Origin: Rugalucina vietnamica
Lineage: Eukaryota > Mollusca > Bivalvia > Lucinida > Lucinidae
Reading direction: 5' to 3'
Assembly (NCBI GenBank): GCA_964017185.1
Contig: OZ024873.1
Coordinates: forward strand, 49,958,760-50,022,759
Length of the DNA stretch: 64,000 bases
The first letter of the stretch is position 1. Each line of letters begins with the position of its first letter. The notes under the pieces are model-generated. The model was not told the DNA's origin. It saw only the letters and a list, made by a program, of their open reading frames with translations, and made no database searches. This document shows positions 8,879-52,680 of this stretch, one piece after another. The position numbers and the translations under genes were made by a program.

Positions 8879-9596
8879 GGTGGGATCCATGACATTTCGT
8901 CTAAAACCAGTTCGTCTAAAGGACATTTCGTCTAAAGGACATTTCGTCTAAAAGACATTTCGTCTGAAGGACATTTCGTCTAAATATCATTTCGTCTAAT
9001 GGACATTTCGTCTAATACGACATTTCGTCTTAGAAAACTTCTAAAATTCGTCTAAAACTCGTCTGAAACATAAATGATAAGGAAAATATTTTTGAACAAC
9101 ATAAGAGATCAATTTCATGACATTTAATCGCTCAAATTGCAGACTATCCCGTAGACAATCCATGTATTCTATAGTAAAAATGGTATAGTAAAATTTAACA
9201 GCCAAAGGCAGATAGTATGAGCCATATACATGTAGTATGAGCCATATTGTGCAATTCTGTGCATATTGTGCAAAGTCAAATAATAAAATCATTGTTTAGG
9301 AATTGTTTCTACAATGTATGTTTTAATACTCGGAAAGTTCTAACTGATCCAAAAGGATCGAAAGAAAATATGATTTGCACTAATGTCTGTGTAAAACAAA
9401 AGATAAACAAATTATAGACCTACCACTTTGATTAATATTGATTTAAAGTAGGGTGCGACATTTGGTCTAAAATTCTTAATTTTTCTTAACTTTGTTTTGA
9501 CCAAATATCGCACCTGCTTGATTTTGAGACGAATTGTCCATTAGACGAAATGTCCTTTAGACGAAATTGTTTAAGACGAAATGTCCTGCACCCGGC
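8879..9596. mobile_element. foldback element with GGACATTTCGTCTAAA arms
   Basis: The left arm has at least eight tandem units of about 16-17 bp (GGACATTTCGTCTAAA variants) between 8890 and 9060. The right arm has the same units inverted (TTTAGACGAAATGTCC) at about 9525-9590. The roughly 460-bp middle is AT-rich and codes for nothing recognisable. Confidence 0.7.
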
Positions 9597-12296: not shown

Positions 12297-12470
12297 TCAC
12301 GTGATTGTATCGTCAAGGCTGAGTTCTGTATTGGGGCAAACTACAATATCGTCCAGATTCTGGTCACAACAACTACTGCTACTACTGCTGCTGCTGCTGT
12401 GACTGGTTCCACATTTCTCGGATTTCTGATTCTCCGTCTCCACTTTGCCATGAAAGCTGAACGGCCATGT
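12297..12470 (-). CDS. TCF21: bHLH gene exon 2 (TWPF C-terminus, polyserine)
   Basis: On the minus strand a pyrimidine-rich TTTGTTTCAG is followed by ACATGGCCGTTC, which reads TWPF, the motif that follows HPVNL in vertebrate TCF21 and musculin. The frame stays open for 57 codons and ends in TGA at 12297-12299. The nine serines are encoded by mixed AGC/AGT codons and are followed by [11 protein letters not shown]. No other TWPF-like acceptor was found between 12.3 and 24.6 kb. The 3' UTR continues below 12297; a plus-strand TTTATT near 11787 could be its AATAAA signal, but this is weak. Confidence 0.9.
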   Translation of the reverse strand, partial: TWPFSFHGKVETENQKSEKCGTSHSSSSSSSSSCCDQNLDDIVVCPNTELSLDDTIT

Positions 12471-15900: not shown

Positions 15901-18900
15901 AAAACATTGATTGTGGTTAAACGTTAGAACCGCTTCGCCGTGTGAGGCGGTTCTAACGAGTACCTACAATATAAGTTATGGATAAAAATGAAGAAAAATG
16001 TTCACCTCTGAAACTATATATAAAATGGGGTTTTAGGGGGTATACTCTTCATGGACATGGTAACCTGATACCATTCAGAGACCGTGATCATGTACCTGTT
16101 TAAAACATTCAGCGTTTCTGCAAAGAAAGCTCCTTTGTTTTCTGACTGTTCAAAATAAATATAGGTGTTGACCATGTTGACCGGTTTTAGAATTTAGAAT
16201 GATAAATCTTAAACCTGCTTACATATCTCATATGTACATATATGACATATATGAATTGATTTCCAAATATAATGTTGGGTTAAAGACGCTTTTAAGTGAG
16301 GGCCTTTCGGAACCTGAATTTTATGGTGACTTGGTTTACAAATTTAAGAAACTTAAAGGAATTAATGATTTTTCTTTTCAGTTCAGAAAAATCATAACAC
16401 GTTACAAACGTATAGGTTATAACTTGAATGTTATGCGACAGTCTGCATGCTTAGTTTTTAACCCAATCATGGTTGATTGCACGCCGGTGGGTCGGGCGTC
16501 AGACTCTATGATGGCCCCGACATAAAGCTATTCATTTTAGTTGGTTGGGGCCGGAGCTTCTTGTCTGTTGCTTGGCCCACCGGGGTCCAACTGGTGTTTT
16601 TCTTTTGCTCCGGAGTTGGTAGGTTATTCGGCGCCCAGGGATCTCCATCGTCGGGCAGCTTACTCAGTCTGTGAGTCCTGGTTTTTGATTCATCAGGATT
16701 TTTATCATGATTTATTTGTTTATTCTTGATGATTCATTGACTAGTTAGAGATTCACCACGAGGACCGAATAACTAACTAAATGTTATGAACCACTGCGGA
16801 AGCTGAGGGTGAGGTTATGGCCGTGTAAAACCGGTTTAAGCCCGCCAGTAACTTTGTGTTACTGATCGTTCCAAGTCGATACTTCTGTGGTGGTTCTTTT
16901 TGTTTTATGTCTTGGTGTTTAAAAAAAAATTTTTTTGTGCTGTTGGCGCCTTATGTATGTTTTCATATTTTTAGTTAAGTTAAGGTAACTGAGTGGCCAC
17001 CTATTGGGAAAATAGCTGCCCATTCGGCTTACGATTGTTTCATGGTATAAGTACCTGATTGTTAGTTTCGTTTTTTCCCACCTCGGTTTTTGGAGTGGGA
17101 ATCTTTTTCTGATTGCGCCTTTTCCTGATCTTTGCCTACTTGTACCTTTTTACATTGTAACTTTAAGTCAGTAATATATACAAATGTATGTTACAAGTCT
17201 GTGTGGGGCTTCGAAATAAATTAACATTTGAAAAATTATAATTGTTAATTTATTACGATACGTTGTCCATATTTACATGCTACAGTGCATACCACCATAA
17301 ACATTGTTTAAGACAGACTATACGGCCCACTCAAGATCATGGTTACTATTTGTGTTGCACTTGAGGCAAAAAAAAATCAACATCTTTGTGTTTTCATGTT
17401 TCTTAGTTTAGGTCGTATAACAACTTAAAACCGCTCAGGTTTATATTCCAGTGATAGTTCTTTTGGGTCATGTGTTTTCGACTTTCACTATAGTAGGTAA
17501 TGGGGATAGTTCAGTACAAGGGTTTCAAATGCTTAATTGAGATCATATACAGCCTAAATATGTCAATGTTCCATGTTGCAGTTAATTAAATACAATGTAA
17601 TCTGTGTGGTTGGATATGAAAATTTGGAGGAAACCTTGACTGCAACTAACATTGTATTTCCAATGTGGCTACGGACTCTACAGGCGATGCAAAAATACAT
17701 TTGACCATATCAGCAGTCTTATATAATTTCTTGACAAAACCTTCAGATATGTTACTAGTTCTAAGTCTGAAAAACAATAAGACCATTCACTCTTCTGTGA
17801 GGATAAATGCAATCATTACGAAAACACACCTATGTAAGTACAGATTTTTCTTGAATTGTGAAAATTGATTTTTTTAGTAGATTTTTTTTATTTTCCTTAT
17901 TTTTGCTCAAAGCATAGATTGTGGGTACACGTTAGAACCGCCTCGTCGAGGCGGTTCTAACGAGTACCCACAATCTATGTTTTGGAGCAAAAATAAGAAA
18001 ACTAGGTAAACCCGTCCATATCCCAGTTTTGCTATACAGAGTGGGGTTTAAGGGGGCATACATTTCATGGACTTGTTTTCCTGCTGTTCAATTGATTCTA
18101 AACTTTCTTTGTCTTCACAGCGAAAGCATTGATACAAAAACTCATGTTCTAATCATGGGTGCAATTTCTTTGGCCTGCCAACTAAAGGCACCAAGAAAAT
18201 TGAAAAAAAAAACATAACAAAAGCACAGTTTCACTTCCTATGGGATATTTCTGTTTCCGAATTGAATTCAGTAAAAAGTACATTACATGGGAAATATGTG
18301 TCTTTAATATTACATGAATATAGGACCTTACTTATTCTTGAACAGAACAGCAAATCAACTTACAAAACACCCAAAATAAAAGTGCAACATCATAACATGC
18401 GAAACAAGGTGATTTTGGACACACGTGAGGATATCGATAAACGTAATAAAATGTACAAATATCTATAGATTCGTCTGAAAATTAAAACGCATGTTACATG
18501 ATATCCGCTTGAAGGATACACAAAATTTCATAAAATTATCCAAGAAAATGAGTAATTGGCATGTAATTACTTGATACAGTTTACTAGACAATGGCGAATC
18601 ACTAAGAGATCTAACGCTATTATTTCAAACACGACCATGGGAATGTTAATCTATTTGACACTAAGAACATCTAACATATCTCAGCTTTACAGGAAAATAA
18701 TAATTTTAATTCATTCAATTTCTTAATGGGAGATAACTCCTGTTGATATGATACCTCCTGCATTAGACAATGGCGAACCAAACTTGACAATGGCGAATCA
18801 ATTAGCCTATAGCCCGAAAGAAACCATTTTAGAAGGGAATTTTTGCACACAAGTGGTGCCATTATCATGCGAGACTAAATGGTGTTCGATAATATCGTGT

Positions 18901-21900: not shown

Positions 21901-24900
21901 GAATTTGTTGCCGACGCAATCAATTCACATACTAATCAAACGAACAAATGTCTAAAGAGACTAAAAAGTGTCACAATAAAATATTAAACAGAAGCGAGGT
22001 GAAAGAATGATATCAATTAGGAAAACAACTGCACAAAATTGTTTATCTTTATTAATATTTTACAAGTCGGATCAGCTAAAAGCTTTCCGATATTTTTACA
22101 GGTGCAGAATTTCAAAATATGAGTTCAGCACACGCGCTTCGAGAAAACAAATAAAAGAAATACTTTGACGTGTTACTCATTTTTTCCCCTCAGACTGATC
22201 TTTATTTATGGATTCTGCCTAAGCCGAATCAGCCAAATAAACAAAATCCTGTAAAATATTGATGCATTTTAGCTTCATCGTGTAAGACTTTCAAACAAAC
22301 AAGTCAGACCATTGCTCTCAAAAGATTATCATTTTCGCCAAAGGTTTATAAATCTATCGTGTCAACAAAAATACAGGATAATTATACATGAACAAATTGT
22401 TTGCACTATGTTTGCTCAGACAATTTAAGCCACATGTAAACATACATGTACCACAAACATTTCTGCAAAAGACTCAAAGAACAATACATAGAACGTTCAT
22501 TTAAAATGACTAATTTTTGCCTCTACCAAAAACAAAATAATGAAACAAGATGCTTGCGATGCTTCTAATCGTCATTTAGAATGCTGACCATGACAATATT
22601 AATTTTGGACTGGAAAGTATTGCTTTAGCATAAATTAATGACACTAAAATTATCAGTGTCGACAAAAAAGCTCTTTGACATTTAAACAGATCCTTTACGA
22701 GCAGTGTACATATCAAATCAAAAGGGGATGGGACATATCGCGGTTTCGGCCACTTAAGCCTCTTCAGTGTCCCTTGAGATTATTTTTGCATCATGGGGTC
22801 AACGAGTATTACTTTAATGCAACTATCAACAGAGAAGTCGATACAAAGAAGTATCCAAATATATTAAACGTTGGTTAGCAAATAAATCTGAACCGATGAT
22901 AGTTTTTTGATTTTTCAGAATATCCTCGCTGACCCCATAGGACCAAACGAAAAATATAACTGAAAATAATAATAATAAAAAAAAAACTCGCATTTGCTGG
23001 CATCATCACGTCAAATATTCATGTAATGTATACCCCCTTGCACCCCACTTTTATTTAGTAAAACTGGGCTATACAGGGGTATAACTATTTTTACCGAGGC
23101 AGTTCTAACGTGTACTCACTATCTATTAGGGATGTCAACCGGAGTCCGAACGTTCGGACTTCGGATCCCGTACCGAAGTTCGGATCCAAATTTTAGCGTC
23201 CGGACGTTCGCTAAAAAATCAAAATGTCTAATGTTTAGGTAAATTTCCATTATTAAATGACAAAAATACGCAGTATCTGCTTAGCAGAATTTAATACAAA
23301 TTTCTAACCATGTAGTGTCAAAGGTCACGGTTTAACAGGTAAAGAGGTAAACGGGACAATGCCGGTCACAAGGAAACGACAATAAACAAAGAAAGGATTA
23401 AAAGTGATAATTTGCCTCTTTTATTTTCTTTCGAAAACGATGTGATTGACACTTCTCCAAGTTTTAAAAATGATAATTATACAGAGCCCGGGAAAACTAC
23501 AATATATATTTTGGGATTAAAGAAAACAAGTAAGCTGACCCGTTTATGCAGAGAAGAAAAACATTCAGAATACCATTAAATTTTCTACATGTATGACGAC
23601 GTCATACAGTTAGTTTTATCATCATGATGTTTGAATGTAGATAAAATTTCCTAAACTGCATGACGTTTCGTTTCTGCACCACATCAACGGAAACAACGCC
23701 AAGCTCAGTAACTCTTGATTATGAATGTACTTTCATAACATACATTTATGTATGTATATATTCATACATAAATGCACATATGATAAGCATGATTCGATCC
23801 GATAGAAAAAAAAAAGATGCGAACGTTCGAACCATCCGGATGTTTGTTTCCGAGCGTCCGAACCCTAAATCTGACACCAAATGACATCCCTACTATCTAT
23901 GTTTTAAGCAAATATAAGAAAAATGTCAGAAAATATCTATGGAAAATCTTCATTTTCAACAACTTTAAAAATCTCTGTACATTGCATGGGCATGTTTTGG
24001 TAATGTATGTACACGTGATTCTGATAACTGCGTTCGATAATATTTAGTTTGAAACCTGGAAACAATATATGCACGCAAAATGTTAAAAATGCGTGTTCAC
24101 GATATTGATCTAGCATTTTACGTTGCATTGCATGGTGGAAGCAAAATGCTCTAGACTAGAAGATCATTTTAATGTCAGATGAAGTAACGTACGTAACATT
24201 GCCATTTATGGCTCTTAGATCTACCTTATTGATTTTCTTGAATAGATGTTTAGCAATTTGAACAAAACGTAACAAAGATGGTTCTTTTTGATATTTTTGG
24301 AAAGTTTCGATTTTAAAAGGTTTTGCTAATGTGTAAAAAAACAATATGTTGAACTTTGGGTCACATATGTTCCTCATTTTTGCTCAAAACATTAATTGGG
24401 GGCACATGTTAGAACCGCATGCGCCGATGCGGTCTAACGATTACCCACAAACTATGTTTTGAGGCAAAAATAATAATAAGACCCCTGTATACCCAAAAGC
24501 CTTTTATTGGGGTGTAAGGGTGTATGCATTTCACAGACATGTTATTCTGATGTTAAGTCGTTGAATATATTTAAAAGTATAATAATAAATATAACTTACC
24601 AAGCTTGTAACTTACCAAGTTTAACGGGTGGATAGCTGATGGCGTGTTCTCTGACGTCACTTCATCGTCCTCACTGTCGAGAATCTGTTTTAAATGTGCT
24701 ATATAGCTAGACGCCAACCTTAGTGTGTCCAATTTAGATAGTTTAGTGTCCGAGGGCACCCAAGGTAGAGTCGTTTTTAATTTCGAGAATGCTTTGCTTA
24801 GTACTCTCATTCTGGAGCGCTCCCTTTCATTAGCAGCATATCTCTGTAACGGATGTGCGTTTTTGTGGTGTTTTCGCGATCCACCATGTTCGCTTTCATC

Positions 24901-24939
24901 ATCACTACCACTTAAAGGTTCTTTTCTTTTCCTTGGCAT
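12297..24939 (-). CDS. TCF21: TCF21/musculin-type bHLH transcription factor, two coding exons
   Basis: The CDS is complement(join(12297..12470, 24616..24939)): 108 codons, an intron of 12,145 bp, then 57 codons and TGA, 165 residues in all. Exon 1 gives an acidic and basic N-terminus, the basic region at about 33-46 (NERERSRMR), helix 1 about 47-58, a loop with [19 protein letters not shown] and helix 2 to about 88. The wording [12 protein letters not shown] and [11 protein letters not shown] is diagnostic of the TCF21/capsulin and musculin group. Exon 1 ends HPLNL at a GTAAGT donor; exon 2 starts TWPF after a TTTCAG acceptor, and the join recreates the family's HPxNLTWPF. Exon 2 also holds a nine-serine run and an acidic end. 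The family binds E-boxes as heterodimers with E-proteins in mesoderm and muscle-lineage development. Human TCF21 is about 179 residues, so the length fits. Seen: exons, splice sites, motifs. Inferred: orthology and role; TCF21 versus MSC cannot be separated here. Confidence 0.93.
12892..12982. repeat. compound palindromic microsatellite (AAT)n(ATT)n
   Basis: About twelve AAT units pass directly into about twelve ATT units, so the whole tract can fold on itself. It lies in the bHLH intron. Confidence 0.9.
13143..13565 (-). mobile_element. TRIM: terminal-repeat retrotransposon in miniature
   Basis: Two direct repeats of exactly 159 bp (13143-13301 and 13407-13565) flank 105 bp. Read on the minus strand each LTR runs TGTGACGGGACAGCC...TTACA. 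After the first LTR comes TTTGGTGGCAGCGGTGGGAT, a typical primer-binding-site region; before the second is the purine run GGAGGGGGGAG, a polypurine tract. A 4-bp target duplication ACTT flanks both sides (13139-13142, 13566-13569). There is no coding sequence, so it needs a partner for movement. The LTRs differ at only a few bases, suggesting a recent insertion in the bHLH intron. Confidence 0.88.
13696..14724 (-). mobile_element. mariner-type DNA transposon, internally decayed
   Basis: Perfect 29-bp terminal inverted repeats start CGAGGTATGGCAGGAAAGTT and are flanked by TA on both sides (13694-13695, 14725-14726). The CGAGG(T/G)xTGG start and AAGTTC word are mariner-like. Length is 1029 bp, shorter than an intact mariner of about 1.3 kb. 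Confidence 0.85.
13940..14162 (-). pseudogene. mariner transposase C-terminal remnant
   Basis: Within the TA-flanked element the minus strand reads [13 protein letters not shown] and, one frame over, [10 protein letters not shown] followed by a stop. This resembles the family's C-terminal W-x-R-KC...G-YVE ending, with a frameshift between the two parts. No catalytic D,D34D region was recognised. Described only; the frame is broken. Confidence 0.55.
14890..15126. mobile_element. HP-2 MITE, copy 5
   Basis: TGAGCCGCCGCATTGGAAAA to GCACAGGCTCA; heart CAGATCAGCTTCGCGGTTAC with complement. Close to full length. Confidence 0.88.
15223..15467. mobile_element. HP-1 MITE, copy 2 (heart shortened)
   Basis: Arms intact, but the central AACCGCCTCG palindrome is missing so GATTGTTCTAACGAG forms the centre. 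It stands only 16 bp from copy 3. Confidence 0.8.
15484..15762. mobile_element. HP-1 MITE, copy 3
   Basis: CATTACGAAAACTTGCCCAT to CGGACATGTTTTCCTGATG with the heart CCGCCTCGCCGAGACGG. Confidence 0.9.
15829..16070. mobile_element. HP-1 MITE, copy 4
   Basis: More diverged: GTCGAAAACATGCCCATGCA at the left, heart CGCTTCGCCGTGTGAGGCG, right end CATGGACATGGTAACCTGAT. Third of a cluster of three within 850 bp. Confidence 0.82.
16199..16470 (+). pseudogene. retrotransposon RT-A, C-terminal end of ORF
   Basis: The frame contains [45 protein letters not shown] and [11 protein letters not shown]. The same protein end is found at 48300-48680. This wording is recognised as the C-terminus of a common reverse-transcriptase-type retroelement protein in marine invertebrates; the exact clade is not certain. 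Only about 75 residues homologous to the second copy remain; the 5' part is truncated. Confidence 0.55.
16250..17150 (+). mobile_element. RT-A retrotransposon, 5'-truncated 3' end, copy 1
   Basis: Almost identical over about 900 bp to 48455-49346. The 3' UTR includes CACGCCGGTGGGTCGGGCG, GGCCCACCGGGGTCCAACTG, GACTAGTTAGAGATTCACCA and the terminal TTGTACCTTTT. A 5' truncation with a shared 3' end is the mark of target-primed insertion. It lies in the bHLH intron. Confidence 0.75.
17151..17813. other. no feature seen
   Basis: AT-rich intron sequence of the bHLH gene. An imperfect inverted word pair (GCAGTTAATTAAATACAATG and CTGCAACTAACATTGTATTT, 17578-17660) may be a small hairpin. Nothing coding. 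Confidence 0.4.
17814..18086. mobile_element. HP-1 MITE, copy 5
   Basis: CATTACGAAAACACACCTAT to CATGGACTTGTTTTCCTGCTG, with the perfect heart AACCGCCTCGTCGAGGCGGTT. Confidence 0.9.
18587..19540. repeat. dispersed inverted GACAATGGCGAATC motifs, possible foldback
   Basis: GACAATGGCGAATC or close forms occur at 18587, 18766 and 18785, and inverted (TTCGCCATTGTC) at 19500. The intervening 700 bp has no recognised feature. Could be a decayed foldback element. Confidence 0.35.
19848..20085. mobile_element. HP-2 MITE, copy 6
   Basis: TGAGCTTGTGCAGGAG to CATGCGGCGGCTCA; heart GCTGATCAGCTTCGCAGTG with complement. Confidence 0.85.
20108..20170 (-). repeat. fragment of RT-A 3' tail, minus strand
   Basis: GAGTCAGCAGCTATTTCCCT matches the reverse complement of the GGGAAAATAGCTGCTCATTC segment. 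About 60 bp, diverged, and like the fragment at 2163. Confidence 0.4.
20417..21348. mobile_element. TA-flanked inverted-repeat element, non-autonomous
   Basis: Left end CACATGGAAATAAGTTAGGG continues AACAC; the right end is its inverse with one or two differences (GTGTTCCCTAACTTATTCC, then TATGTG). TA dinucleotides flank both ends. Length 932 bp, no transposase frame. Fits the Tc1/mariner superfamily by its TA target; the family is not identified. Confidence 0.65.
21350..22670. other. no feature seen
   Basis: About 1.3 kb of AT-rich intron sequence of the bHLH gene. Open frames of 66-77 codons near 21535-21793 have no recognisable domain and overlap in two frames, which argues against coding. 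Confidence 0.4.
22677..22915 (-). mobile_element. ribozyme-bearing dispersed repeat, copy 1 (retroelement end)
   Basis: The reverse complement aligns in word order with 28484-28694: ATCGGTT, CTAACCAACGTTTAA, TTTGTATCGACT, CCCCATG, CACTGAAG, GGCTT, TTCACTGCTC/TACACTGCTCG and AGGATCT. It carries the hammerhead-like sequence. Such ends are known from Penelope-like elements and related retroelements; here no protein is present. Confidence 0.6.
22730..22773 (-). ncRNA. candidate type I minimal hammerhead ribozyme
   Basis: On the minus strand: GGGACA (stem I), CTGAAGA (core CUGANGA), GGCT-TAAGT-GGCC (stem II, last pair G-U), GAAA (core), CCGCGATA (weak helix III ending in the U-A cleavage position), TGTCCC (stem I, perfect complement of GGGACA). 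All conserved core positions are present. ACCGCGAT is one change from the palindrome ACCGCGGT, the arrangement seen in minimal hammerheads thought to act as dimers. Fold drawn by hand. Confidence 0.62.
23015..24008. mobile_element. HP-1 MITE, copy 6, interrupted by a hAT-like element
   Basis: The left part (TATACCCCCTTGCACCCCAC ... TTCTAACGTGTACTCACTAT) ends at 23126. The right part resumes at 23893 with CTATCTATGTTTTAAGC and runs to GCATGGGCATGTTTTGGTAATG. The interruption carries an 8-bp target duplication. Confidence 0.85.
23127..23892. mobile_element. non-autonomous hAT-like transposon, 766 bp
   Basis: Ends TAGGGATGTCA and TGACATCCCTA are exact inverse copies, flanked on both sides by CTATCTAT, an 8-bp duplication diagnostic of the hAT superfamily. 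Subterminal motifs CCGAACGTTCGG, GTCCGGACGTTCG and GAACGTTCGAAC repeat at both ends, as expected for transposase binding. No transposase frame. Confidence 0.88.
24372..24551. mobile_element. HP-1 MITE, copy 7 (right half and heart)
   Basis: TTTTTGCTCAAAACATTAAT, heart AGAACCGCATGCGCCGATGC, right end TCACAGACATGTTATTCTGATG. The left third is not recognisable. It sits 65 bp downstream of the bHLH exon 1 donor. Confidence 0.75.
24616..24939 (-). CDS. TCF21: bHLH gene exon 1 (start codon, basic region, HLH)
   Basis: ATG at 24937-24939 opens a 324-nt coding exon of exactly 108 codons, so the intron is phase 0. This ATG is the first in frame upstream of the bHLH and gives a lysine/arginine-rich start (MPRKRK) typical of the family. 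The exon ends at CTTG before GTAAGTTAC. Reading on would add a few residues (VSYKLGK...) and then stop, which marks the exon end as a splice site rather than coding. Confidence 0.94.
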
Positions 24940-25063
24940 TTTTCTTTCAGTTAAATTAAGTTTTTTGATGAAAAATTCCCGTAGCTTTTTCAGATTCTAT
25001 GGCATGTTGCACTTTCAGCTTAGCATGTCTGTCGGGTTATCACTCGAAGGTTCGTCCAGCAGT

Positions 25064-28336: not shown

Positions 28337-28431
28337 TTATTGTTCACCATATTGACATTGGACAATCACATGATATACTCGTCTTCAATGCTTGAAAGGT
28401 AAAATCCCCAAACTGAATGTCACATATTATT

Positions 28432-28882
28432 ATGTCTTTGTGTTAAAATGTTTGTGTTGTTTGCACCTTATGTATAGGTATGTTTCAGAAAATTATTATC
28501 GGTTTAGAGTCATTTTCTAACCAACGTTTAAATATTTGACCCAATTTGGATATAACTAGTCTTTGTATCGACTACCCTTTTGAACGATGTAAATTACAGT
28601 CATAATCTTTGGCCCCATGTTGCCAAATCTATAGGGTCACTGAAGTGGCTTCAGTAGCCGACTCATTAATATGTTCACTGCTCTTAATAGGATCTCACTT
28701 TATTTTTTATTTCATATCTTAACAGAGTGGTCACCTACTGGGCAAATAGCTGATCATTCGGTTTACGATATGTTTTCATGGTAAAAGTGCCTGATAGTTT
28801 TCACCCACCTCGGTTTTTGGAGTGGGAATCTCTTTCTGATTGTGCCTTTTCCTGATCGTTGCATGCTTGTACCTTTTTATAC
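28432..28882 (+). mobile_element. RT-A 3' end, copy 4, split by a ribozyme-family repeat
   Basis: GTGTTGTTTGCACCTTATGT (28432-28480) and, after about 230 bp, GAGTGGTCACCTACTGGGCA to TTGTACCTTTTT (28728-28882) are contiguous in copies 1 and 2. The interruption is the second copy of the repeat at 22677. Confidence 0.65.
28484..28694 (+). mobile_element. ribozyme-family repeat, copy 2 (core decayed)
   Basis: Same word order as 22677-22915 read in reverse. The ribozyme segment is GGGTCACTGAAGTGGC...GCCGACTC: the CTGANGA core has lost its last A and the GAAA box is gone, so it should be inactive. Confidence 0.6.
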
Positions 28883-35479: not shown

Positions 35480-35900
35480 CATGATAATTTATTGACTAGT
35501 TAGAGATTCACCGCGAGGACCGAATTACTAAAACTAAACGTTGTGAACCACTACAGAAGCTGAGGGTAAGGGACCCGTAAAACCGGTTTAATCACCCAGT
35601 AATTTTATATTACTGTCCGTTCGAAGGCAGTACCTCTGTTGTGGTTTTTATCCCTTTATGTTCTGGTGTTGAATATGTGTGCTGTTTGCATCTTATGTAC
35701 GTTTTCATATATTTAGTTAAAGTCCGTGTAACTGTGTGGACACCTATTGGGGAATAACTGCTCACTCGGCTTACGATATGTTCTTATTGTTTTAGTACCT
35801 GGTTGTCAGTTAAGTTTTTTTCCCACCTTGTATTTTGGAGTAACTGTTGGAATTTCCTTCTGATTGTGTAATTTCCTGATCATTGCTTACTTTTACCTCG
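35480..35900 (+). mobile_element. RT-A 3' end, copy 3
   Basis: GACTAGTTAGAGATTCACCG to CATTGCTTACTTTTACC, in the same order as copies 1 and 2 but more diverged. The protein part is absent. Confidence 0.75.
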
Positions 35901-36285
35901 TTACACATGCTTATGAGATGTGCTCTTGACATGATTCATATCATAGCACAGTTTCAAAGAATCACAATAGTTGTATACAGACCATTCAGAAGAAAAAGTA
36001 AAATCGAAATAATAGAATAGCAATCGTAATCTGAAAATTTACTGTCTGACAACGATTTCCTAATCCGACAGGTCAGGTTTCCGCTGTGACAGATACATGT
36101 ACATTCAACTACAAAAACGAGACTGAAAAACATTAATATTTCGTCTCTTCGGAAAAATCAGCCAAAACTCCCATGTGTCTCTTTCATTCTAGAACACTGG
36201 TACATTTAAAAACTAAAACCTGCACCGAAAAGGTCAGTTGACACAACTGGAACCTTGGAAACAGGTTTTCTCGGAACTGATGCCA

Positions 36286-41133: not shown

Positions 41134-44100
41134 GTAGGTAAATTGTAAAACTCTTAAATCGTAAAATGAAAGTTCATATTCATATTATTGTCGAAACACG
41201 TCTAAGGAAAAGCAAGATTCTCGCCAATAAAACGTACAGTTCAATCTATGATGTGGTAATTAAAATATATACAGGGTCCTTTTCTTAAAGTGTTCAAATC
41301 GTAGATAATTGTCAACGGCATCGTTGGCAATGGGATGTTCCCGTAAGTGTACACACCGACGGAGTGGAATGGAGGTACCGAGGTGGAGATGCGTGAAACT
41401 TCGTCAGGATAACATGTCCGTGTAATACTATACCCACTTATACACCACTTTTATATAGCGAAATTGGGGTATGCAGGGGTATACCTATTTTTCTTTTTAC
41501 TTTTTGCTCTGAACACAGATTGTGGGTACCTCGCCGAGGCGGTTCTAACGTGTACCCACAATCTATGTTCAAAGTTTAGCAAAAATAAGAGAAATGTAAA
41601 CACAGTCCAATTAAATATTCAATTGTTACATATGACAAAATGTTCTTTCGTCGCGTCAGGTATTGCCTTCATGTTTGTAACGTTAAAATCGACGTAAATT
41701 ACGGCGTTTCATATTTGAACGTGAGGTTTCGTTTCGAAGAGTACACAACTTCTTCAAGTTACTCACCAAATGCCATAGTATGTCATGAACATGAAGCGCT
41801 TGGTACATGTAACAGCGATGGACGAAAAAGAAAGAAGAGTGATTTATGTAGCGACAGTAAAAGCTTTCAGTACGTCCACAATAAGCAGGCTCCAGTCGTG
41901 TTAGGAAAATCAGTCATGCTAACCACACTGTCCTATGGCATGCATACTCGAGGCAGATTATCAGTATTTTGTGTTCATTCTTCAGTTATTAACTAACAAG
42001 TACTCTTCATAGATCACATAAAATGAAGATACATGTCTTTACGAAAGCATGTTTGATGACAGTATTTAATAACGCAAAATATAACGCGACGTAGAAAGTA
42101 CGCCATTTTTCGTTTGTGTTACAAATTGTAAACGTATATTTAATAAATCGCCAACAATTCAATACTTGCAGTTTTAGGACAAAATTTCATACACTACGAC
42201 TTTAGAATGTGAGGATTATTGTCATCAATTTATTTGTTTGATATGCAAACATAATTATGGCTACGTCTTGTGTTTGCAAATACCACAGATAGTTTCGATA
42301 CTTTTCCGTATGACGGCAACTTCTGACGCGAGGTTTCTGTATATTGCATGGTTAAGTTTCCGTAATGATTTCGAAAGTTTTGTCATACTCGGAAGTCGAA
42401 TGGTTTGATGGAAATTCTTGAAATTGCAGCAAAAATGTCTGGCTTTCGCTGCCGGTTTTGTAAAGGGTCACTGATGAAGGTTCATTACCCGAAATTGTAC
42501 AATTTGGCCCATCTTCTCGCTTTAAATGTTTTACTGCTTCCAAAGGATCTAACAATTATTTTTATTTGAACCGCTATATCTGTTTTCCGTGGCTCAAAAG
42601 ACAGTTTGTAACACTTTAAAGACACGCTCTCTCAAGTCAAGAATTTTTGTTCCGTACTCAGTTCACGTTATGTGACAAATGAGCCAAACGATATACAACA
42701 CAGCACAAAAAGTAGTTTTATCACATTTCTGTACCTGTCTGTCTTACAGAAAATGGTACCATGATCACCTACTGCAACTATAAAGGTGACAAGAAGTTTC
42801 CTGGCGACAAGTGGACGTCAAAGGAATGTGAGAAATGTACCTGTACCGCTGATGAAGGACTGAAATGCTGCAAGTAAGTGAAAATTTTATTATGCCCGTA
42901 TTTCCCCAACCTCACCCAAGCATCTGCCACCTGGGTAGACTTTTGATATAAATGTAACCTTAAGTTTGCAACAGCGAGTCACCGAAAAAGAAACAATAGT
43001 TCTGTTGGAGAGTTGGTTGATCTAGCTGGATCCCCGTGTTCTGCTATAATTAAATGGACTGGCGCATGACATCTGAAATACACGTGGGATTTGGGAGAGC
43101 ATCGAACATTATCGACTGCTGGGAAACACTAAAGGACTCGTCACACATAAGCGAAAGTCCCTCGACGTAGACTTGCGCAGACTTGCGTTTTATTGTAAAA
43201 AGTAGTTATTTATTGTTTGATTTATTGCTTTACTCCCCTTTCAACAGCTAACGTCCCGGCATGACCATAGCTATTGATCGGGACGTACAGCACTAAATCA
43301 AAGAAACAAAAACTAATTTTCGCAATTAAACGCGAAAGATTTGTGACGAACAAAATCAACTAATAATTTTAATTCGATTGCTTATTCTGATAAGATCGTC
43401 TTTCTTTCCAGGGCGGGACAGCACCATGTGAGCTACACCAATGTGAACGGCGACTCTGAATGTGTCCAGAAGAAGGAAGGTTGCGAGATCAAATGGGTGT
43501 ACCGCAACGACCAAAACAAGGCATGCCCTGAGTCGAAGATACCGAAACCAGACAAGATGCCAAAAACAACACCGGCGGCGCCCGGCGATCCGTTAGCCGG
43601 AATAGACGAAGAGTAAGAGTATTTTCTGGCATTTCTTGTAAAAGTAGCACAGAAATAAATTTAAAAGTGAGTACGTTTTGTTGATTGCTTTATACCCCAC
43701 AAAGGTTGACCGTTCTTTCAGAACGAAAATATAAACTGCGTCAAATACACAGTGTAGCCTCGTGATGAAAGTGAAATAAATGAACAAATGAAAACCACAG
43801 TCACCATTAAAGTATCATTTGGCAAAACCTGGTCAAATAAAATCATCCTTATATCCCTAAATCCTTTGTGAACTTAGTCAGAAAACAAAGTACAGTATTT
43901 GATACAATTAGATTTACAATCCCCACCCCGACATCAAGCGGGAAGGAAAATGACTGAAAGACTGCCTATGAAATAAAAACAATAGGTATGACAAGCAAGG
44001 TGATTAGCTCCTTTCTAGCAAGGTGGTCGCCTAAAACAAAGATAGCGAGAACAATAGAGAGGTAGACAGACAAAAAGTGACATAAGGATACACAATTAAA

Positions 44101-48299: not shown

Positions 48300-49348
48300 T
48301 ACATTTCGCAACTTATTAGGTTTGCTAGAGTCTGCAATGATGTTACAGACTTCAACGCTCGAAATAAATGTTTAACGGCCAAACTTCTCCAACAGGTCTA
48401 TCGGTATCATAAACTTCGAAAAACCTTTTCTAAATTTTATCGTAGACACTATGAATTGATTTCCAAATATAATGTCGGGTAAAAGACGCTTTTAAGTGAG
48501 GGCCTTTCGGAACCAGAATTTTATGGTGACTTGGTTTACAAATTTAAGAAACTTATAGGAAGTAATGATTTTTCTTTTCAGTTCAGAAAAATCATAACAC
48601 GTTACAGACGTATAGGTTATAACTTGAATGTTATGCGACAGTCTGCATGCTAAGTTTTTAACCCAATCACGGTTGATAGCTATGCTGCCTTCTTTAATTG
48701 CACGCCGGTGGGTCGGGCGTCAGACTCTATGATGGCCCCGACTTAAACCTATTCATTTTAGTTGGTTGGGGCCGGAGCTTCTTGTCTATTGCTTGGCCCA
48801 CCGGGGTCCAACTGATGTTTTTCTTTTGCTCCGGAGTTAAAAATTTATTCGGCGCCCAGGGATCTCCATCGTCGGGCAGCTTACTGAATCTGTGAGTCCT
48901 GGTTTTTGATTCATCAGGATGTTCATCATGATTTATTTGTTTGTTTTTGATGATTCATTTACTAGTTAGAGATTCACCACGCGGACCGAAGAACTAACTA
49001 CAGAAGCTGAGGGTGAGGTTATGGCCATGTAAAATCGATTTAAACCCGCCAGTAACTTTGTGTTACTGATCGTTCCAAGTCGATACTTCTGGTGTGGTTC
49101 TTTTTTATGTCTTGGTGTTCAAAATATTTTTGTGCTGTTGGCGCCTTATGTATGTTTGCATATTTTTAGTTAAGTTAATGTAACTGAGTGGCCACCTATT
49201 GGGAAAATAGCTGCTCATTCGGCTTACGAAATGTTTTCATGGTATAAGTACCTGATTGTTAGTTTGGTTTTTGCCCGCCTCGGTTTTTAGAGTGGGAATC
49301 TTTTTCTGATTGCGCCTTTTCCTGATCTTTGCCTACTTGTACCTTTTT
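48300..49348 (+). mobile_element. RT-A retrotransposon 3' end, copy 2 (longest)
   Basis: The protein part starts about 150 bp further 5' than copy 1. The tail is CACGCCGGTGGGTCGGGCG to TTGTACCTTTT. Left of it CTAACGTGTAACCACAACC repeats the adjacent HP-1 word CTAACGTGTACCCACAATC, possibly a target duplication of about 20 bp. Confidence 0.8.
48308..48680 (+). pseudogene. RT-A reverse-transcriptase-type ORF, C-terminal fragment
   Basis: Reads YISQLIRFARVCNDVTDFNA, then [27 protein letters not shown], and after a one-base frameshift (GTCGGGTAAAAG against GTTGGGTTAAAG in copy 1) [15 protein letters not shown] and [17 protein letters not shown]. Family wording of a retroelement reverse transcriptase C-terminus; broken and 5' truncated. 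Confidence 0.6.
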
Positions 49349-51076: not shown

Positions 51077-52680
51077 TCATGGAATCAGCTGGTGGCCCAT
51101 TGGTATTGCAGTCTGTTCCCAAGACCCATTGGTATATTGAAATCCTTCAGAGAGGCTTTGAGGGTGTCTTTGTAGCGTTTTGTCTGGCCATCTTGAGAGC
51201 TCTTTCTTTGGAAGTCGCTCATCAGGCATTCTTATAACATGGCCAGTCCACCTTAGCTGTGCTAGCTTTAAGACAATATGCATGCTTTGCATCCCTGCTT
51301 TCTTCAGGACCTCCGTGTCTGGGATCTTGTCTTGCCACTTGATTTTTAACAGCTTTCGCAAACAGCTTAAGTGGAAATGGTTCAGTCTCTTTGCATGACG
51401 CTAGTATACTGTCCAGGTCACATGCATACAAGAGGTTTGGCAATACCACAGCCTTGTAGACTTTCAGTTTGGTGTCAAGCTTGATTCCATTTTGCTCCCA
51501 GACATTTGCACGGAGTCTTCTAAATGCCACACTGGCTTTTGCAATTCTGGCAGTGACCACATCATCAATGTGCACTGCTCTGGAAAGAGTGGTTCCCAGG
51601 TAGGTGAATTGATCAACAACTTTCAGTTTTTGTCCATTCACAGTGATGGTTGGTTCATCGTACGGTTTTCCAGGTGCTGGTTGGTGTACAACCTCTGTCT
51701 TTTTGTGCTGAATGTGAGGTCATAGTTATCACATGACTGTGAGACTTGATCCATGGCTCTTTGCATTTTTGCCTCTGAGCTGGCATTCTTATCCATATCA
51801 TCTGCATAGAGGAGCTCATCAAGCACATCAGTCTGCACCTTAGGTTTGGCTTGCAACATTCTATGGTTGAATATATTGTCATCAAAACGGTACCTGATTG
51901 AAAAAACAGTGTCACTGTCCTGAAAAGCATCCATGAGCATTGCAGAAAACATCATGCTGAACAGTGTTGGTGCCAAAACACAGCCCTGTTTGACCCCATT
52001 CGTTACCTCAAAGGGTTCAGAGAACTCTCCATCATTTTGCACACGTGCTTGCATGTCATCATGAAATTGCCGCACCATTGCTATGAATCTGAGTGGACAG
52101 CCAAACTTGGCCATGATTTTCCAGAGTCCGTCACGACTAACTGTGTCAAAAGCTTTGGTGAGGTCGACAAACGTCATGTATAGATCTACATTCTGTTCTT
52201 GGCATGTCTCCTTGCTGTGAAGATCATGTCTATTGTCCCTCTGTCTTTTCTGAATCCACATTGACATTCTGGCATAAGTCCCTTCTGATCAAGATGAACA
52301 TTCAGGCGGTTCAACAGAATTTTACCAGTATCTTCCCAGCTATGCATAGGAGGGAGATGCCTCTGTGGTTGTCAAAGACTTGTGCATTTCCTTTCCGCTT
52401 GTATTTACGGTGGTTTATGGATGCATCCTTAAATTCTTGTGGGATAGCCTCCTTCCTCTACATACAGTTAAACAACTCTGTCAGTTTCTCTGCCATGGGT
52501 AGACCCCGGCCTCATAAACCTCTGCAGGAATTGCATCTGTACCCGGAGCTTTCCCAGATGACAGTTGTTGAACTGCTTTTCTTTTCTCCTGCTTCACGCC
52601 TCTCCTCACTTTTGCGTCCACTTCAGAAGAAGGTGTATCCAGCACCAACTTCTTTGCACTCCCCAACATCTGCCAACCGA
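51077..52680 (-). pseudogene. LINE-B reverse transcriptase and C-terminus, several frameshifts
   Basis: In order on the minus strand: QLSSGKAPGTDAIPAEVYEA (about 52500-52560), GISLLCIAG and CQCGFRK segments (52270-52400), VDLTKAFDTVSRDGLWKIM and KQGCVLAPTLFSMMF (51950-52170), the YADDMD catalytic box (about 51790), then GQKLKVVDQFTYLGTTLSRA, LKVYKAVVLPNLLYACD, and LRWTGHVIRMPDERLPKKE near the end. At least three frames are needed, so it is not active. Confidence 0.85.

Follow-up and report, generated by a model that had tools for sequence, protein, structure and literature searches.

Probable retrozyme origin of a minimal hammerhead motif in a bHLH gene intron of the bivalve Rugalucina vietnamica

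A hammerhead-ribozyme-like sequence lies in an intron of a basic helix-loop-helix (bHLH) gene on contig OZ024873.1 of the lucinid bivalve Rugalucina vietnamica (GenBank assembly GCA_964017185.1), and the present analysis suggests that it belongs to an old, 5'-truncated copy, here called C1, of a metazoan retrozyme of the kind lacking long terminal repeats (non-LTR), a non-coding element whose unit measures about 376 base pairs (bp). We put the probability of this reading at roughly 0.88. The window, by which we mean the whole 64,000-nucleotide (nt) stretch that was analyzed (positions 49,958,760 to 50,022,759 of the contig), holds C1 as a solo copy at 22684..22959 of the minus strand, corresponding to unit positions 73-365, as recognized by blastn with the unit of one genomic locus, L032 (74% identity, E value 6e-51). 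The family adds another member to a class of mobile elements already known, and much younger relatives of C1 stand in tandem arrays genome-wide.

The motif of C1, a type I minimal hammerhead at 22730..22773 on the minus strand, agrees with a full type I descriptor (stem I of at least 4 bp, helix II of at least 3 bp and an exact core), of which it is the sole match in the window, and scores 68.1 bits with our own covariance model, R1, which was built from 46 rows including C1 itself. Its elements follow one another in the order GGGACA, CTGAAGA, GGCT-TAAGT-GGCC, GAA, ACCGCGAT, A and TGTCCC. These are read from the sequence as the 5' strand of stem I (22768..22773), the core (22761..22767), helix II (22748..22760, also seen in the fold), GAA with helix III (22737..22747), and, from the descriptor, the A of cleavage position H17 at 22736 with the 3' strand of stem I (together 22730..22736), all on the minus strand. 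Stem I pairs at six of six positions and helix II, with its loop TAAGT, at four of four, one of them U-G, while helix III alone makes one pair plus a C.A mismatch; three helices thus surround CUGANGA, GAAA and UH with stem I open, as is the case in type I hammerheads. The cut predicted from the descriptor would fall between 22736 and 22735. When the 44 nt are folded with one additional base on each side, the centroid is exactly stem I plus helix II, and the minimum-energy fold adds two extra pairs to these (z -1.8, 9 of 200 shuffles being equally stable). The original prediction had described this minus-strand hammerhead from 22773 to 22730, and its letters, stems and core were confirmed. It had also described helix III as one base from a palindrome, and the corresponding family consensus, ACCGCGGT, proved to be a perfect palindrome.

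C1 is one of many copies, as expected from the earlier claim that the motif sits in a dispersed repeat, for which further copies were found both in the window and in the genome. The assembly searched comprises 1.09 Gb in 47 contigs. With a 151-nt query around C1, the best 40 of 1,432 first-look candidates were scored, giving 41 match rows (C1, one row for each of 39 further loci, and an extra row from a locus that matched twice), and the 39 loci were fetched; after three of 49 forward alignment matches that do not span the motif were dropped, 46 copies were left, 31 of which retain the full core with at least five stem I pairs and at least three helix II pairs. The consensus hammerhead of this family reads GGGTCA CTGAAGA GGCTTAAGTAGCC GAA ACCGCGGT A TGGCCC, and the exact 44-nt consensus occurs 366 times in the genome, with no occurrence of the reversed-pattern control. 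The window also contains a young solo copy of a sister family, C3, at 42407..42567 of the plus strand, which is 99.4% identical to a genomic unit and whose hammerhead (42465..42510, plus strand) reads GGGTCA CTGATGA AGGTTCATTACCC GAA ATTGTACAAT T TGGCCC, with GAAA present and an A.C mismatch at the base of helix II. Among the best 40 of 1,466 first-look candidates scored for this family, 40 listed matches besides C3 are 98-99% identical to it over the matched part, and its 46-nt hammerhead, in the version that has A at the cut position, has 1,520 exact copies in the genome, again with none of the reversed-pattern control. At H17, 113 of 115 instances have A, and both T cases represent C3, which entered the count from the window and again from L048.

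The architecture of the genomic copies carries the assignment to retrozymes. The C1-family unit is about 376 bp long, and the GC content is 39.6% and 38.4% in the units of the two families. Head-to-tail repetition of the motif, with spacings of 336-382 nt, is seen in 9 of the 39 C1-family loci, one of which (L020) also has a partial copy 86 nt further along, and in three more (L025, L027 and L029) a unit begins directly after the tail of the previous one, making 12 of 39 tandem. Of 21 sister-family arrays, 14 contain several units, each about 375 nt long; nine of 30 loci had been left out for overlapping the same arrays. The longest stop-to-stop frames are 53 amino acids (aa) in L032 and 69 aa in L050, so that these units hold no long frame, and no Penelope-like open reading frame (ORF) with reverse transcriptase and GIY-YIG endonuclease was found in the unit. 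Tandem non-coding units within the 150-450 bp range, each with a type I hammerhead, together with dispersed copies that have no coding capacity, a fixed 3' end and 5' truncation, are among the defining features of a retrozyme, and both were observed here. As for the ends, 49 of the 51 unit matches in the 39 C1-family loci end at unit positions 369-376, the other two at 241 and 294, while their 5' ends are scattered over positions 1 to 319; in the sister family 20 of 21 arrays end at 373-375 and one at 368. From the predicted cut to this common 3' end there are 63 nt. Because a single 3' end is combined with scattered 5' ends in both families, their copies resemble reverse transcripts begun at one site and truncated at the 5' side. 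The two families agree at every one of the first 81 nt of the unit (L032, oriented, 811-891 versus positions 2-82 of the L050 unit), and the remainder is clearly diverged, which might reflect either a strongly constrained 5' block, for a promoter or for protein binding, or an exchange between the families.

It could be argued that the arrays are satellite DNA generated by unequal crossing-over, in which the hammerhead is a mere passenger. Tandem arrays do exist, and variants private to an array could be explained by local duplication or conversion. Satellite DNA would, however, hardly account for dispersed insertions, even single copies, that share one 3' end and have scattered 5' ends, or for helices that co-vary across families, and the random unit positions expected at both array ends were not seen in the 39 plus 21 places. 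A second old copy in the window, C2 (28485..28707, plus strand), is moreover inserted in another dispersed repeat of which empty sites are known. The single 3' end, the scattered 5' ends and this insertion together mark reverse transcription, and we consider a satellite origin very improbable. The variants themselves were compared among 38 units of 21 sister-family arrays. Three units of L064 share two variants and two units of L072 share three that are private to their array, L070 and L051 have one array-private variant each, five listed variants are common to different arrays, and single units also carry private differences of their own inside arrays. The distance is 1.32% within arrays (23 pairs) versus 1.79% between them (680 pairs), and none of 1,000 label permutations gave a value as low. 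Variants shared within an array fit the trace expected of several rounds of copying on one circle; later duplication within the array might also explain them.

A more serious competitor is that C1 is a solo pseudo-LTR (pLTR) with the tail of a Penelope-like element, in which case the motif would mark the 3' end of truncated autonomous copies. Penelope-like elements are described as having minimal hammerheads at the pLTR/ORF junction, partial tandems and an internal start past the hammerhead (PMC11167929; PMC3846280), and such elements with a hammerhead of their own exist in this genome. PF01541 matches were obtained at 150 scored places of 451 candidates; open frames of 964 aa contain 11 of these places, and GIY-YIG units stand head to tail at 3,891-3,893 nt on contigs C15, C14 and C7. 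In locus L110, RVT_1 and GIY-YIG share one 482-aa frame, the frame covered by the scan, and about 700 nt past the endonuclease there is a hammerhead, CTGAAGA A GCC GAAA GGC GAA AGCGCGCT C, with a 4-bp stem I. R1 found matches in 7 of 30 GIY-YIG loci (L103, L105 and L110-L114; E 0.001 to 0.08), whose minimal hammerheads have the palindromic helix III AGCGCGCT or nearly so. A second hammerhead candidate in L106, L107 and L114 (C15:424418-427681), TTCCTG CTGAAGA GCTGTAAAGT GAA AGCGCT A CAGGAC, has a GNRA-type loop II and a palindromic helix III, AGCGCT. Against an origin from truncated Penelope-like copies stand the tandem unit, about 376 bp in length and lacking a long ORF from one hammerhead to the next, and the rarity of unit-like stretches near GIY-YIG domains, seen at one of 30 loci (L111). 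A 3' tail shared with Penelope-like elements was also considered and rejected, as the retrozyme tail was not seen in L110, the single Penelope-like locus, and hence the one family, compared in detail, and no clear similarity to the units was found there outside the hammerhead. Landmarks of the unit tail for the matching of a partner are TTACTGCT...AAAGGATCT...TTATTTTTATTT. We therefore regard the pseudo-LTR explanation as unlikely and the retrozyme as the probable carrier. Retrozymes and Penelope-like elements had been named as known carriers in the original prediction, and this proved apt, given that C1 is carried by a tandem element of the retrozyme type and that the genome is also home to Penelope-like elements whose minimal hammerhead is similar. 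The genome thus holds a non-autonomous element along with possible helpers; non-autonomous retrozymes and Penelope-like elements are co-resident in other animals described in PMC7229834.

Whether selection has acted on the motif as a ribozyme can be judged from its variation. Among the C1-family copies the core differs from the consensus in 14 of 506 cells, versus 96 of 1,503 in the upstream sequence, spacer and loop II (p=0.0014). Selection from the fetched loci and the window required the core, a helix II 13 nt long and five or more stem I pairs, with no pairing filter on helices II and III, and gave 41 distinct motifs; one of them (L087) looks like a chance match. The six pairs of helix II and the dimer helix III are paired in 86.6% of cells versus 72.7% in shuffles, and changes on both sides of a pair number 36 versus 11.6; none of 2,000 shuffles reached either figure, with the reservation that the shuffles ignore relatedness and that the cells count sequences, so that independent events are few. 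In nine lineages, a hand-picked set biased toward informative rows, 5 of the 12 pairs of all three helices change on both sides, with a covariation score of 0.40 versus 0.19. Helix III has been re-lettered while remaining self-complementary (ACCGCGGT, ATTGTACAAT, ATTGCGCAAT and ACCATGGT), and the base of helix II is G-C, A-U or U-A depending on the copy. Simulation of the stem changes from C1 to C3 gave P values of 0.017 under uniform substitution, 0.056 with transition bias and 0.0008 in the reverse direction, which lends modest support. Core, helices and a palindromic helix III have thus been kept across diverged lineages, in line with the ribozyme reading of the original prediction.

Several observations weigh against this interpretation. 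The copies compared are the best matches to C1 and no random sample; many of the two-sided changes trace to the split between the two families; the young sister family has the unpaired A.C at the base of helix II; and within the C1 family alone no helix covariation beyond that in shuffles was detected, a result that fits copies decaying once inserted. The expectation that the core would vary less freely than its flanks held for the spacer and upstream sequence and failed for the 3' tail, which varies least of all (10 of 826 cells; p=0.054 in the opposite direction), and no clear difference emerges when all flank classes are pooled (p=0.087). At minimum energy the consensus 44-mer folds with shifted pairs into a form other than the hammerhead (-14.4 versus -10.8 kcal/mol), C3 alone forms stem I and another hairpin (z -0.1), and the L032 unit, folded as a circle, has no more self-pairing than its shuffles (z -1.1), on account of which the idea of a rod-like circle, for this one unit, was dropped. 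Target-site duplications of at least 8 nt were found at 1 of 39 and 2 of 21 insertions, no excess over the controls at about 2%; such duplications, longer than 4 bp when present, are reported for some retrozymes and are not required in all, and at the L060 insertion about ten target bases seem, by eye, to have been lost. Finally, Rfam release 15 gave no hammerhead match in the whole window, nor at E<=10 in 22710-22800 and 42420-42560 or in six tandem loci (L011, L026, L032, L034, L036 and L043). The lack of a covariance match, named as a refuting outcome with the original prediction, was thus formally obtained. The Rfam result says little about C1 because the hammerhead of the Penelope-like L110 (2380-2560, E<=10) is missed as well, and an Rfam match is a curation score, and no defining chemical property.

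A further explanation is that a chance hammerhead-like string, or a conserved coding sequence, has been spread in a family with no ribozyme. Besides the Rfam result and the fold of C3, it draws on the ATG in the core of C3, which opens a frame of 31 codons. The core string CTGANGA..GAAA taken by itself is common in the window (8 found versus 5 expected), unlike the complete motif. None of 60 second-order Markov windows contained one with at least six stem I and at least four helix II pairs, and none of 600 contained one with 6/6 and 4/4 pairs, a helix II of 13 nt and a helix III of 8-10 nt. C3 was recovered at E=9e-8 by R1, a model built without C3, and the covariation described above also argues against chance or coding. 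Conserved coding in particular was rejected, since the C3 peptide has no Pfam match and the frame of the C1-family consensus stops inside helix II; the differences between C1 and C3, by eye, are not gathered at third codon positions. Chance or coding as the source of the motif appears exceedingly improbable.

If the motif is a ribozyme, the weakness of its helix III suggests how it might work. In the monomer the two-pair helix III contributes nothing to the model energy, whereas the calculated self-duplex of helix III is worth -14.1 kcal/mol in the consensus, -8.8 in C3 and -7.1 in C1. This combination fits the interpretation published in PMC7761336 and PMC7229834, according to which type I hammerheads of the minimal form act as dimers when their helix III is weak, and a palindromic helix III with family-specific letters would be expected of hammerheads that cut in this way. 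Self-cleavage in the family is suggested by these features, and solo copies such as C1 would, according to the energies, cut poorly and arrays better. The following scheme can be considered for the element. Read-through transcription of a tandem array would give a multimeric RNA, in which the palindromic helix III might pair two hammerheads of the same or of two transcripts, and the dimer so formed would cut the units after A17. A host ligase might close the monomers into circles, by analogy with other retrozymes, and a reverse transcriptase supplied in trans, probably Penelope-like, could begin synthesis 63 nt downstream of the cut, at a fixed position in AU-rich sequence. Copying round and round the circle would then leave 5'-truncated head-to-tail arrays with one 3' end; such ends and arrays are what was observed. 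C1 itself survives as a single leftover copy whose motif is nearly intact, probably without efficient cutting. As a tentative extension, which we hold to be somewhat more doubtful than not, each array might be one target-primed, multi-round reverse transcript of a single hammerhead-made circle, with an internal start of the Penelope-like kind and an end anywhere upstream, and helix III might have been selected for tandem-only cutting. If this is true, tandem-only cutting would leave solitary copies in host introns uncut. A family whose hammerhead has 1,520 exact copies, with arrays of 375-nt units, one 3' end and array-specific variants, offers material for a direct test of retrozyme mobilization. 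Minimal hammerheads may also be undercounted in animal genomes, because Rfam missed them in each place tested.

The intron that holds C1 (12471..24615, minus strand; splice sites assigned by eye) is 12.1 kb long, with a predicted donor, TTG/GTAAGT, after 24616 and a predicted acceptor, TTTCAG/ACATGG, before an exon at 12470. The bHLH exon gives a PF00010 match of 1.9e-17 in the open frame 24571-24996, and the exon past the acceptor begins with TWPF, which we take to mark the second exon of a TCF21/musculin-like gene. C1 lies within this intron on the sense strand of the gene, as was originally proposed, with the PF00010 match and the predicted donor and acceptor as evidence. The original suggestion that C1 could cut the host pre-mRNA found no support. 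Efficient cutting is unlikely because there is one hammerhead and its palindrome is damaged, the C.A mismatch in helix III reducing the self-duplex to half of the consensus energy. Domestication of the ribozyme as a regulator of the bHLH gene, acting from within the intron by cleavage of the pre-mRNA, would agree with the sense orientation and with the fact that all core letters are intact, but C1 is one of many dispersed copies, with a single motif and a damaged helix III, and we attach almost no credence to such domestication. A role of C1 for the gene is possible but unlikely, and for the host the finding is probably ordinary intronic repeat debris.

The remaining copies in the window were located by blast and profile searches. 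The hammerhead of C2, at 28634-28677, is broken: it reads CTGAAGT and GAC, and the 3' strand of its stem I is missing, apparently owing to a deletion. Closure of stem I by C2's own upstream TGGCCC was considered and rejected, as genomic copies show the downstream TGGCCC as the partner. The dispersed repeat hosting C2, about 250 bp long, hosts L060 elsewhere; in the window it lies at 28427-28880 and 2412-2533, and at 49102-49348, 16905-17158 and 35656-35906, the last three being the empty sites. A sister-family fragment on the minus strand (9277..9382; 73%, 2e-13) covers unit positions 65-175, a part without the hammerhead. A 17-nt inverted repeat around C1 led us to consider a miniature inverted-repeat transposable element, which was rejected because TTTGAGATCAGCGAGG and TTTGGCTCCATG stand at these places in most of the aligned units, and C1 alone seems to have the inverted repeat. 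Two further observations concern the window at large. An RVT_1 fragment at 51638-52288 (minus strand, 5e-17) looks like a long interspersed nuclear element rather than a Penelope-like element. Rfam SECIS_1 matches 16500-16567 of the plus strand (score 37.4 versus a gathering score of 35), and this is probably a repeat rather than a selenoprotein signal because the stretch recurs at 48581-48920 with 90% identity.

Comparison with known systems places the families close to the metazoan non-LTR retrozymes, as these are described in PMC7229834, with units of 150-450 bp, about 350-390 bp in mussel. The short non-coding tandem units of 375-376 nt, the type I hammerhead, the many dispersed copies, a GC content under 50% and the co-resident Penelope-like elements are all shared with them. 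The families studied here differ in having no evident loop I (by eye) and a palindromic helix III, features that are reported for amphibians, and no target-site duplications were seen in them. Among the satellite hammerheads of newt and axolotl, which lie in tandem repeats of 330-350 bp, Amex1 has a helix III of one pair with a palindromic tetraloop and Amex2 one of two pairs with a tetraloop (PMC7229834). The weak helix III is a common feature, and the U.U mismatch at the base of helix II in Amex2 has a counterpart in the A.C of the sister family; the sequences are different, and the loop 1-loop 2 contact described for Amex1 and Amex2 was not seen here by eye. The minimal hammerheads described in Penelope-like elements (PMC7761336, PMC6155905, PMC11167929) are similar in being minimal type I with a weak helix III, and these elements likewise end shortly past the hammerhead and form 5'-truncated partial tandems, while the retrozyme unit differs from them in having no ORF. 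The distance from the cut to the 3' end is 63 nt here versus about 85-92 nt in the anole Penelope-like element, in which the cut is at 26 and the start sites are at 111-118 bp of the ORF (PMC11167929). By its description in PMC6155905, Schistosoma Sm-alpha, a small non-autonomous retroelement with a type I hammerhead, is also comparable. Circular RNA templates have been proposed for the mobilization of retrozymes, with the enzymes of Penelope-like elements as candidates (PMC7229834).

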